This document shows positions 15,502 through 34,648 of a DNA stretch of 64,000 nucleotides, piece by piece (position 1 is the stretch's first letter; every line of letters begins with the position of its first letter). A program made the position numbers and the translations under genes. The notes under the pieces were generated by a model, which saw only the letters and a program-made list of their open reading frames with translations, did not search any database and had not been told where the DNA came from. Origin of the DNA: Herbinix luporum (lineage in GTDB: Bacteria; Bacillota; Clostridia; Lachnospirales; Lachnospiraceae); assembly GCF_900070325.1 (NCBI RefSeq), contig NZ_LN879430.1, positions 2,101,379 to 2,165,378 on the forward strand, given 5' to 3'.

Positions 15502-15716
15502 AAAAAAGCGGCCGAAGCCGCCCTTATCATTAGTATAAACCCCCAAAATGCCGTTTCCTGCATTTTGACTCCTAGCTTCGCTAGGTGGGTAACCGCATAT
15601 CAGCTTCTGCCTTCCGCTACTAGGCGGCTTGACATCCACCAATAAATGTAGGAAACCCTTATTACAACATGTAGGTTCAAAATTACAGGAGTGTCGAACA
15701 TCTCAGGAACATCTTT
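15502..15716 (-). ncRNA. ssrS: 6S RNA
   Basis: On the minus strand an RNA of about 215 nt runs from a consensus promoter to an intrinsic terminator. It opens with TTCCTGAGATGTTCG, like the 5' end of 6S RNAs, and contains TTTGAACCTACATG and a CACCTAGCGAAGCTAGGAGTC hairpin. The termini pair: 5' TTCCTG with 3' CAGGAA (15560-15555), and ACTCC with GGAGT, giving the long interrupted rod with a central bubble typical of 6S RNA. 6S RNA binds sigma-A RNA polymerase and mimics an open promoter. The terminator stem is GCGGC-TTCG-GCCGC (15521-15508) plus T6. A second hairpin, AAAATGC/GCATTTT, competes with the 3' closing strand. Confidence 0.82.
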
Positions 15717-24306: not shown

Positions 24307-24319
24307 GACACTTGACACT

Positions 24320-24412
24320 TGATTGCTTCCTTACGCCGGTATTACCCGGATCAAGTAGTGAGGGTCAGCATGTTATTACTAAACATGCTTCTCAGCTGTC
24401 GCTCCCCTAGCA
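24320..24412 (-). promoter_or_regulatory. TPP riboswitch (THI element)
   Basis: The minus-strand RNA contains the conserved THI blocks: GGGGAGC, GCTGAGA, ACCCTCACTACTTGATCCGG and GGTAATACCGGCGTAAGGAAGC, with a variable P3 arm GCATGTTTAGTAATAACATGC. It precedes thiT, a thiamine transporter gene, which matches function. When TPP binds, the adjoining terminator should form. Confidence 0.95.
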
Positions 24413-24512
24413 TTATTATTAATACATATGTAGTTTCCTACTCTATCATATACAATCCTTATATACTTGTCAATACGTTATATATTAATTTCAAGTAAAT
24501 TAAGTTGTTTAT

Positions 24513-31432: not shown

Positions 31433-32293
31433 CTAAAACAGGGGAACTACTGCTCCTTCATATGTTGTTTCAATAAACTCTCTTACTTCATCACTTTTTA
31501 GGGCTTCTACAAGGGCTTTAATCTCTTCCCTTTTTTCGTCCCCTTTTCTTACAGCTATGACATTACCATAGGTTTCTGCCGCTAATGAATTCTGATCCTC
31601 TACCACAATAGCATCCTTTGATACATTTAAATCACCCTGAATAGCATAGTTACCATTTATAACTGCCATATCCACATCATTTAAGGAAGGAACAAGTTGT
31701 GCCGCTTCTATTTCATGAATTACAAGATTCTTTGGATTTTCCGCAATATCATTAATGGTTGCATTCATACCGGCACCTTCTGTAAGTTTTATTAGCCCTT
31801 GGGCTTCCAGTAATAGAAGGGCCCTTGCTTCATTAGTTCCGTCATTGGGTATGGATATTTCTGCCTTATCCTTTAGTTCCTCAAAAGTCTTAGTCTTTCC
31901 GGGATAAATACCAAAGGGCTCATAATGAATAGCAGCAACAGACACCAAATTCAGGCTACGTTCTTCATTAAAATTATCTAGGTAAGGCTTGTGCTGAAAG
32001 AAATTAGCATCCAGGTCACCATAATCTAGAGCAAGATTTGGCTGAACATAATCGGTATACTCAATAATTTCCAGCTCATATCCCTTAGCTGCTAAAAGTC
32101 CTTTAGCAACTTCTAAGATTTCTGCATGAGGTGTAACACTGGCTCCTACCACAATTTTTTTCGAGTCCTTGTTGGAACCTTCTTCTTTACCTTGTGTAGT
32201 ATTATCTGTACCATTCTTTTTATTAGCACCACAGCCACTAAGAAGAACTGCTGTTAATAAAGTAAGTAGTACTACTGTAACAATTTTCTTCAT
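31433..32293 (-). CDS. metQ: Methionine-binding lipoprotein MetQ (NlpA family)
   Basis: This 286-aa substrate-binding protein belongs to the MetNIQ importer. The lipoprotein signal ends in the lipobox LLSGC (Cys about 21), followed by a Lys/Asn-rich linker and the NlpA domain beginning KIVVGASVTPHAEILEVA. Typical landmarks YTDYVQPNLALDYGDLDANFFQHKPYL and ISIPNDGTNEARALLLLEAQGLI are present. It binds methionine (possibly D-methionine or sulfoxide) outside the membrane. It is the last gene of the operon, 61 bases after metI, and is presumably controlled by the leader upstream of metN. Confidence 0.95.
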   Translation of the reverse strand: MKKIVTVVLLTLLTAVLLSGCGANKKNGTDNTTQGKEEGSNKDSKKIVVGASVTPHAEILEVAKGLLAAKGYELEIIEYTDYVQPNLALDYGDLDANFFQHKPYLDNFNEERSLNLVSVAAIHYEPFGIYPGKTKTFEELKDKAEISIPNDGTNEARALLLLEAQGLIKLTEGAGMNATINDIAENPKNLVIHEIEAAQLVPSLNDVDMAVINGNYAIQGDLNVSKDAIVVEDQNSLAAETYGNVIAVRKGDEKREEIKALVEALKSDEVREFIETTYEGAVVPLF

Positions 32294-32354: not shown

Positions 32355-33014
32355 CTATAATCTCTTATCAGTATGTTTCATCCATATGGTTCCGATCTCC
32401 TGAAATACTTGGACAATCAATACCATTAAAATTATAGTGACCAGCATTATATCCGTCTGATTGCGGTGGTATCCATAATTTATTGCAATTGTACCAAGTC
32501 CTCCACCTCCGACAAATCCGGCCATTGCTGAATAACCAAGAATTGTGACTACTGCAATAGCCCCTCCCATAATCAAAGATGGCTTAGCCTCAGGAATCAG
32601 CACCTTAAAGATTATCTGCAAAGGTGAAGCCCCCATGGACTGTGCCGCTTCTATCACCCCATAGTCCACCTCTTTTAAAGAACTTTCTACTAACCTAGCA
32701 ATATACGGAGCCGAACCAATAACTAAAGGAACAATTACCGCTTTATAACCTAGGGTAGTACCTATAAGCATTCTGGTAAATGGCATTAAGGCCACCAAAA
32801 GAATAACAAAAGGAACAGAACGAATTATATTTACTATTATCCCTAGAATTTTATTTAGTATCACAAGGGGAGCAATACCATTCTTATCGGTAACTACCAA
32901 CAAGATGCCTAAGGGAAGGCCTAGTATATAAGCAAATAAGGAAGATACTAAAGTCATATACAAAGTCTCTAATATGCCTTCTCCTATCATATTAATTACC
33001 GCCTGACTAAACAT
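32355..33014 (-). CDS. metI: Methionine ABC transporter permease MetI
   Basis: This 219-aa permease has about five membrane helices and the BPD_transp_1 signature EAAQSMGASPLQIIFKVLIPEA (residues about 140-161), the EAA coupling loop. Sequences such as ETLYMTLVSSLFAYILGLPLG and IVNIIRSVPFVILLVALMPFTR are typical of MetI. The ATG lies one base after the metN stop, and its ribosome site GGAGGTGATTTAG is inside the end of metN, showing tight coupling. Confidence 0.95.
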   Translation of the reverse strand: MFSQAVINMIGEGILETLYMTLVSSLFAYILGLPLGILLVVTDKNGIAPLVILNKILGIIVNIIRSVPFVILLVALMPFTRMLIGTTLGYKAVIVPLVIGSAPYIARLVESSLKEVDYGVIEAAQSMGASPLQIIFKVLIPEAKPSLIMGGAIAVVTILGYSAMAGFVGGGGLGTIAINYGYHRNQTDIMLVTIILMVLIVQVFQEIGTIWMKHTDKRL

Positions 33015-33015
33015 G

Positions 33016-34023
33016 CTAAATCACCTCCTCATGGGGTATTTTATTGGCCTCTAGATATGCAAATATCCTTTTCTTTCCCATTTCATCATCGGGCAGCTGG
33101 ATAATCATTTGTCCGTATGCTTTACCATAAATATCATTTGTGTCTGCAAATAAAATATTCACCGGAGCTTTACATTCCAATATCATATTTGCAATAACCG
33201 GCTCTAAAGAAGTCCTTCCGTCAAAGATAATACGTAATTTGTCCTTACCTTCAAAGATTTCAATATGATTTGCCCCCGGAAATATTAACTTCTTTGCAAT
33301 CTTAGATTTTGGTTTCATAAAGACTTCATCAACATCACCTATTTCAGCTATATTACTATGATCTATAATAGCCACACGGTGGCAAATCTCTTCAATAACA
33401 CTCATTTCATGGGTAATCACTATTATCGTAATCCCCAGTTTCTGATTTATTTCATTTAAAAGTTTTAAAATAGACCTGGTAGTAGTGGGATCTAAAGCAC
33501 TGGTAGCTTCATCACATAAAAGTACCTTGGGCTTTGTTGCTAGGGCTCTGGCTATGGCTACCCTTTGCTTTTGTCCTCCAGAAAGCTTAGCGGGATATGA
33601 ATTTGCCTTATCACTAAGCCCCACTATCTCAAGAAGTTCTATGGCCCGTTTTTTTGCCTCCTTCTTTGAAACCCCTGCTATCTCTAAAGGAAAGCATACA
33701 TTCTGCAGTACAGTCCGCTGCATCAGCAAATTAAACTGCTGGAAAATCATCCCCATAGATTGCCTAATCTTCAATAATTCATGTTTACTTACTTTAGATA
33801 AATCAATTCCGTTAAAAACAACTGTACCTTCCGTCGGTTTTTCTAAGTAATTAATACATCTAACTAAGGTACTTTTTCCCGCACCACTAAGACCTATAAT
33901 TCCGAAAATTTCACCTTCATATATTTTAAGATCAATTCCTTTTAGGGCAGTTACTTTGTTATTGTTATTTTCAAAAGTCTTGCCAAGTCCAATTAATTCA
34001 ATTATAGGTTTCCGATTACCCAT
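33016..34023 (-). CDS. metN: Methionine ABC transporter ATPase MetN
   Basis: This 335-aa ATPase has Walker A GLSGAGKSTLVRC (about residues 43-55), a Q-loop FQQFNLL, signature LSGGQKQRVAIARAL, Walker B VLLCDEATSALDP and H-loop VITHEM. The C-terminal NIL domain (about residues 260-335) is the regulatory methionine-binding domain that gives transinhibition in MetNI. The ATG at 34023 follows GCGGAGGTGG. It is the first structural gene, behind a leader peptide and terminator, with no SAM riboswitch. Confidence 0.96.
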   Translation of the reverse strand: MGNRKPIIELIGLGKTFENNNNKVTALKGIDLKIYEGEIFGIIGLSGAGKSTLVRCINYLEKPTEGTVVFNGIDLSKVSKHELLKIRQSMGMIFQQFNLLMQRTVLQNVCFPLEIAGVSKKEAKKRAIELLEIVGLSDKANSYPAKLSGGQKQRVAIARALATKPKVLLCDEATSALDPTTTRSILKLLNEINQKLGITIIVITHEMSVIEEICHRVAIIDHSNIAEIGDVDEVFMKPKSKIAKKLIFPGANHIEIFEGKDKLRIIFDGRTSLEPVIANMILECKAPVNILFADTNDIYGKAYGQMIIQLPDDEMGKKRIFAYLEANKIPHEEVI

Positions 34024-34068
34024 AATACCACCTCCGCCACATTTACATAATTAGGAAATACAAGAGTA

Positions 34069-34097
34069 ATAAAAACAGGAGGCCTGATAGCCTCCTG
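34069..34097 (-). terminator. Attenuator terminator in the metNIQ leader
   Basis: A perfect 8-bp stem CAGGAGGC/GCCTCCTG with loop TATCAG is followed by TTTTTATT on the minus strand. It stands between the leader ORF stop (34163) and the metN start (34023). Directly 5' of it, CTGGT-TTTT pairs with AAAA-ACCAG and TTAGGA(A)TATA with TATATCCTAA, giving a second large hairpin at about 34160-34098. Confidence 0.88.
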
Positions 34098-34162
34098 CTG
34101 GTTTTTACCTTCTATTATATTTAGGATATAGTAAGCTTATATTCCTAAGGAAAACACCAGAT

Positions 34163-34261
34163 TCATCTATCAGAGCGCAATATGATATAAGGCATGCCGT
34201 ACATAGTACACATACCAAACATGTTACACATATTGCACATGATGATGCTTGATGTTTTCAT
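34163..34261 (-). CDS. Methionine/cysteine-rich leader peptide of metNIQ
   Basis: A 32-codon ORF on the minus strand starts MKTSSII, then MCNMCNMFGMCTMYGMPY, then IILRSDR and TGA. Methionine stands at residues 1, 8, 11, 14, 17, 20 and 23, so from residue 8 every third codon is ATG; Cys is at 9, 12 and 18. A ribosome site GGAAGGGAG lies eight bases before the ATG, and a consensus promoter lies 72 bases upstream. Within the ORF, GCAATATG (34236-34229) can pair with CATATTGC (34184-34177), giving a pause-type hairpin. Position, codon bias and the downstream terminator fit a ribosome-stalling attenuator that senses charged Met-tRNA, possibly also Cys. It was too short for ordinary gene calling. 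Confidence 0.82.
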   Translation of the reverse strand: MKTSSIIMCNMCNMFGMCTMYGMPYIILRSDR

Positions 34262-34332
34262 CAGATAAGCTCCCTTCCGTACTATAACTTCTCTCACTTA
34301 ATTCCCAGTAATCACATATGTATGTAGGGAGT

Positions 34333-34361
34333 AGTATAACTTATGTTTAAATTATTGTCAA
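34333..34361 (-). promoter_or_regulatory. Promoter of the metNIQ leader
   Basis: Minus-strand TTGACA (34361-34356), a 17-bp spacer and TATACT (34338-34333), a near-perfect sigma-A promoter. It predicts a start near 34326 and a leader transcript of about 300 nt before metN. Upstream, 34362-34507 is AT-rich apart from a GC patch at about 34408-34429 that I could not assign. Confidence 0.88.
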
Positions 34362-34573: not shown

Positions 34574-34648
34574 TCGAGGTGACAGGATTTGAACCTGCGG
34601 CCTCTACGTCCCTAACGTAGCGCTCTAGCCAAACTGAGCCACACCTCG
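34574..34648 (-). tRNA. tRNA-Pro (anticodon AGG)
   Basis: A complete cloverleaf on the minus strand: acceptor CGAGGTG/CACCTCG, D stem GCTC/GAGC, anticodon stem CTACG/CGTAG with loop TTAGGGA (AGG at 34-36), T stem GCAGG/CCTGT with loop TTCAAAT, discriminator A, and no encoded CCA. AGG reads CCU Pro codons; A34 is uncommon in bacterial tRNAs outside tRNA-Arg(ACG). A TATAAT box lies about 20 bases upstream of the 5' end. Confidence 0.93.

Follow-up and report, generated by a model that had tools for sequence, protein, structure and literature searches.

The closest described systems are the attenuators of the trp, his, leu, thr, ilv and pheA operons of Proteobacteria and some Actinobacteria, in which a short ORF led by a Shine-Dalgarno sequence (SD) is rich in codons for the amino acid of the operon, a terminator lies before the structural genes, and the pairings 1:2, 2:3 and 3:4 are mutually exclusive. 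The specificities listed for such attenuators are His, Leu, Thr, Trp, Ile/Val and Phe; methionine is not among them (PMC3766115). In Firmicutes, histidine leader-peptide attenuators with tandem His codons are found at hisS/hisZ and his operons, where ordinary leader-peptide attenuation stands in place of T-boxes in Gram-positive bacteria (PMC2965389, PMC9413887). Codons of a sulfur amino acid occur in the Cys-codon uORFs of mycobacterial cys operons (PMC1262725; PMC13236596), which were described in 2026 as translation attenuation (PMC13236596) and for which no conserved terminator is reported. No RNA structures were found upstream of methionine operons in Actinobacteria (PMC1262725). The met genes of Gram-positive bacteria carry Met T-box and SAM (S-box) riboswitches, which also act by premature termination and of which the T-box reads tRNA charging too; here the RNA itself is the receptor for the tRNA or SAM, and translation is not involved. 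No methionine leader peptide or metNIQ attenuation was described in the open-licence papers covered by our literature search, and the methionine (possibly Met plus Cys) specificity of leader-peptide attenuation is apparently unreported.

The DNA analysed here, referred to as the window, is a stretch of 64,000 nucleotides of Herbinix luporum. A locus upstream of its metNIQ operon is very probably a trp-type ribosome-mediated transcription attenuator, in which Met codons with adjoining Cys codons would act as the sensor. The basis of this reading is the anatomy of the locus, its conservation, the alternative pairings with their dependence on ribosome position, the genus-wide link to metN and the recurrence of unrelated Met-rich leaders. 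The actual stalling, the in vivo dependence on methionine and the magnitude of the effect are what we infer from these. In contrast to the classical attenuators, the sensor is Met (plus Cys), the target is an importer and the host belongs to Clostridia; region 1 of Herbinix is the leader's own start-codon segment, and there is one Met in every three codons instead of a tandem run. The Firmicutes histidine attenuators serve another amino acid, gene and set of lineages, the mycobacterial uORFs belong to Actinobacteria, and the Met T-box and SAM riboswitches are absent at the Herbinix locus. Promoter, SD, a 32-codon ORF, UGA, intrinsic terminator, metN, metI and metQ follow one another on the minus strand, and the elements up to metN that the initial annotation lists were all confirmed:

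34333..34361, minus strand: sigma-70-type promoter, TTGACA (34361-34356), 17-nt spacer, TATACT (34338-34333); 11/12 consensus matches
34270..34278, minus strand: Shine-Dalgarno of the leader ORF, GGAAGGGAG, 8 nt 5' of the ATG
34163..34261, minus strand: leader peptide ORF, 32 codons + UGA (ATG 34261; UGA 34165-34163), MKTSSIIMCNMCNMFGMCTMYGMPYIILRSDR; present in 27/34 Herbinix genomes
34193..34240, minus strand: putative sensor codons, Met 8, 11, 14, 17, 20, 23 and Cys 9, 12, 18
34250..34261, minus strand: region 1 (A), AUGAAAACAUCA, at the start codon of the leader; partner of region 2B in both the window fold and the RNAalifold consensus
34150..34173, minus strand: region 2, consisting of C, CUGAUAG (34173-34167, directly 5' of the UGA), and B, CUGGUGUUUUC (34160-34150)
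34084..34105, minus strand: region 3, consisting of E, AAAACCAG (34105-34098, pairs with B), and D, CUAUCAG (34090-34084, pairs with C)
34071..34099, minus strand: intrinsic terminator, hairpin 34099-34076 and U-run 34075-34071; kept in 26/26 aligned homologues
33016..34023, minus strand: metN (ATG 34023), ATPase with C-terminal NIL domain; ABC_tran and NIL domain matches
32355..33014, minus strand: metI, permease; NF008049, above cut-off
31433..32293, minus strand: metQ, NlpA/MetQ-family substrate-binding lipoprotein; Lipoprotein_9 match and NCBIfam search

The leader ORF contains six internal Met in 32 codons, one every third codon. Region 3 shares sequence with the terminator, namely with its 5' arm and its loop. 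The best NCBIfam model for the metN product was MetN, with a score under the equivalog cut-off. The leader RNA was much more stable than its shuffles (RNAfold z = -6.7). Of the two hairpins proposed in the initial annotation besides the terminator, RNAfold gave no independent pair; from the start codon to the terminator, mainly one long hairpin was formed, which spans the whole ORF and competes with the antiterminator. A tRNA gene is located at 34574-34648 on the minus strand, just upstream of the leader promoter, and the same tRNA 3' end (CCTGTCACCTCGA) was also seen upstream of several homologous leaders.

The metN orthologues closest to that of the window come from the same genus (Herbinix/Mobilitalea), the MetN of Herbinix hemicellulosilytica being 84% identical, and a related leader precedes every same-genus orthologue for which complete upstream DNA exists. 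With a covariance model derived from 26 genus leaders, exactly one copy, before metN, was found in 27 of the 34 Herbinix genomes. Four of the seven remaining genomes had no close metN match, two had a distant metN only, and in one the contig ended at metN. No true copy was found by this search outside Herbinix among 397 family genomes; the weak matches L036 and L037 resulted to be just terminators of unrelated genes. A weak second peptide match in the own genome (L002) sits inside an apparent transporter gene and was dropped, and the spaced-ATG pattern occurs at one further place only in that genome (C1:1969671).

In the alignment of the 26 leaders, the purine-rich SD was retained throughout and a TTGACA/TATACT pair of like kind was present upstream of many of the homologous leaders. 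Met codon 8 was found in 26/26, and the gaps in the Met-rich core were 3, 6 or 18 nt, all multiples of three. In the ten close relatives that could be aligned without gaps, the six ATG codons (18 nt) were invariant in 10/10, whereas 19 of the 33 other core positions varied (hypergeometric p about 2e-5); several Cys positions were replaced by Tyr, Phe, Ser or Gly. The N/S was 0.51 in the coding frame compared with 0.65 and 0.51 for the alternative frames, and the coding frame was not singled out, probably because the RNA structure constrains every frame. Better evidence for coding than N/S comes from the ATG codons, which do not vary, and from the indels, which keep the frame. In one Herbinix leader (L014:2578-2787), a UGA at codon 29 ends the ORF four codons early, with all its Met codons retained.

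RNAalifold on the 26 leaders, unprompted, gave two helices, the terminator (3:4) and the 1:2 helix, in which region 1 (AUGAGAACAUC, the leader start segment) is paired with region 2B (GAUGUUUUCAU, directly after the stop in the clade of the window). A competing pairing is also evident from the alignment: the GAUAG-type segment C, which lies around the stop codon, can pair with the CUAUC-type segment D, located in the terminator loop and 5' arm, and this helix is lengthened when B pairs with E, the A-rich segment before the terminator. The antiterminator, left unassigned in the initial annotation, can thus be given as region 2 (C and B) with region 3 (D and E). C and D were complementary in 26/26 homologues. 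Coordinated changes were detected: GAUAAG or GAUAGG next to GU occurs mostly with CUUAUC, and GACGGC occurs with GCUGUC (L017, L022, L023) or GUUGUC (L027). The support for C:D consists of coordinated length change and U-A/C-G exchange and is partly clade-structured. The cognate C:D mean was -5.65 kcal/mol compared with -4.05 kcal/mol for non-cognate pairs, and this was equalled in 0/5000 permutations, a figure inflated by shared ancestry. As judged from the aligned sequences, the leaders have and conserve all the alternative pairings of a trp-like attenuator (1:2, 2:3, 3:4). Together with the genus-wide Met-rich frame tied to metN, these pairings support the leader-peptide attenuator that the initial annotation had proposed.

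The dependence on ribosome position was studied by masking the ribosome footprint and folding the RNA as it stands just before the 3' arm of the terminator is made. With the ribosome on a Met codon, C:D reached at least 4 pairs in 25/26 homologues and B:E was formed too. With the ribosome at the stop, C:D was 0 in 25/26. Without a ribosome, C:D amounted to at most 0.1 pair in 23/26, and region 1:2 formed 7-13 pairs in 23/26. In the case of the window leader, C:D was about 4-5 pairs for all Met codons from 8 to 23 and 0 from codon 29 onward. The exceptions were L021-L023 with a poor protector helix, L022 and L024 with some antiterminator in the absence of a ribosome, L019 with a weak C:D, and L028, whose early stop would leave C unmasked. 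The structure is predicted to switch between three states, with the ribosome stalled, at the stop or absent.

According to the proposed mechanism, RNA polymerase would transcribe the leader as the ribosome translates the 32-codon ORF. When charged elongator Met-tRNA is scarce, the ribosome would stall, first at codon 8, where by the usual footprint size it should lie over region 1. Region 2 would then be free for region 3 (the terminator 5' arm and loop), the terminator would not form and metNIQ would be transcribed. When methionine is plentiful, the ribosome would reach the UGA and cover C of region 2, and the terminator would form; if no ribosome is loaded, region 1 would pair with region 2, and again the terminator would form. 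Against this mechanism it can be argued that methionine starvation should also lower initiation on the leader itself, limiting or blunting the response.

Outside the genus, the scan covered the 80 best metN relatives from other genomes plus another 80 upstream regions. Met-rich SD-led ORFs unrelated in sequence precede metN in Lacrimispora/Hungatella-like Clostridium, Agathobaculum and Intestinibacillus, and further ones were found in one Oscillospiraceae MAG and several additional families. Among 132 distinct non-Herbinix metN regions, SD-preceded uORFs with at least 4, 5 and 6 Met per 15 codons were present in 31, 22 and 13, respectively, compared with 0.2, 0.0 and 0.0 expected from dinucleotide shuffles, the independent cases being nearer ten since many of the 132 loci are relatives. 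The next excess after Met was that of Cys (7 compared with 0.45 expected at the lowest threshold), and the other amino acids stayed within about fourfold. In 619 kb around 80 metN loci, read on both strands, 32 of the 33 ORFs with at least 5 Met per 15 codons lay no more than 600 nt upstream of metN, a non-independent count that includes relatives. A terminator followed the Met-rich leader in 21 of the 22 examined outside Herbinix.

In Agathobaculum, region 2 (GCUCGUUUUUC) pairs with the SD segment of the leader itself and also with the 5' side of the terminator, GAAAACGAGC; 9 of these 11 pairs were never broken in 13 sequences, and the antiterminator pairs stay intact through one-sided A-to-G changes. 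By its sequence, Agathobaculum appears to follow the same logic as Herbinix with different letters. A separate conserved antiterminator, of 13-15 pairs, is present in the Lacrimispora-like group, whose terminator stem changes. For single representatives of the other groups, the mean z of antiterminator complementarity was about -1.6, strong in some and at background in others. The SD of the Agathobaculum leader pairs with codons late in the same ORF (columns 9-26 and 62-80 of alignment A2; L095:1286-1467 and relatives), and a leader of this kind would block its own translation if early loading of a ribosome fails.

The role of the peptide and of its cysteines has to be weighed against stalling at Met codons. 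It is known that in TnaC the nascent chain is arrested in response to tryptophan. A Met/Cys-rich peptide could likewise arrest the ribosome in the tunnel upon a ligand such as a metal, an oxidant, Met or SAM, and switch the same RNA structures. Metal binding is conceivable for Met-x-x-Met and Cys motifs, part of Herbinix conserves MCGMCSMP well, and Cys adjoining Met recurs in every leader group. However, the peptides of different groups are unrelated save for their Met and Cys content, there is free variation among close relatives at the residues that separate the Met codons, and the conserved GFARFSA of Agathobaculum is accounted for by RNA pairing of its codons, so that such a nascent-chain sensor is considered unlikely. 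In 12 representative leaders, all of which (12/12) qualify by Met count alone, Cys was the commonest non-Met residue (38/299, p about 2e-12 compared with its codon share) and followed Met in 26 of the 67 Met-nonMet steps. This could mean that cysteine is a second signal, or that AUGUGY is preferred on other grounds. The same enrichment and Met-Cys steps, and the Cys-codon leaders known in Actinobacteria (PMC1262725), would also fit cysteine as the main signal with the Met codons secondary. This is very unlikely, given that Met is far more enriched and invariant in position, that several Cys are replaced in relatives and that the operon encodes a MetNIQ importer with a NIL domain.

The ORF would be incidental if the locus were a translation-independent riboswitch or a divergent T-box or S-box, and the strong folding and the frequent T-box or SAM riboswitches before clostridial metN point in that direction. 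Yet no T-box (RF00230), SAM/S-box (RF00162) or other Rfam family matched at the leader even at a permissive threshold, in agreement with the lack of such motifs recorded in the initial annotation, and the below-threshold matches look like chance. The SD, start codon, Met codons and in-frame indels are all conserved, and the unrelated RNAs of other groups have just the Met-rich frame and the terminator in common, which makes a riboswitch highly improbable.

Returning to the Met-codon attenuator, an extended form of it appears possible, if somewhat doubtful as a whole: a dual sulfur-amino-acid attenuator that senses the charging of both Met- and Cys-tRNA, whose Met-Cys-rich peptides were reached repeatedly in separate clostridial lineages, replacing T-box/SAM control of metNIQ, and which works although methionine starvation weakens initiation on the sensor ORF. 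With the proposed attenuator, methionine, also the starter of every protein, would join the amino acids read by leader-peptide attenuation, and classical attenuation would be frequent at a single operon throughout Clostridia, which are believed to rely on T-boxes and riboswitches. The several unrelated natural leaders are material for separating Met-codon stalling from initiation failure as the determinant of the output. A mode of metNIQ regulation is also suggested for many gut and biogas bacteria whose leaders are covered by no RNA family model.

In other Clostridia, T-boxes were found before metN at 14 loci (L126, L138, L142, L158, L166, L168, L172, L176, L177, L179, L183, L185, L200, L205), four of them slightly to clearly under the Rfam cut-off, yet with E below 1e-16, and SAM riboswitches at L117 and L127. 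One clostridial family contains leader genera and T-box genera alike. Five changes of the leader label, gains and losses pooled, are required on the MetN tree, and at least four of them are forced by well-supported branches. Elsewhere in the own genome, there are 12 T-box matches and one SAM (S-box) riboswitch, the latter preceding what we take by eye to be an S-adenosylmethionine synthetase gene. The window also contains a TPP riboswitch (24311-24418, minus strand) and a 6S RNA (15536-15712, minus strand), both above the gathering score.
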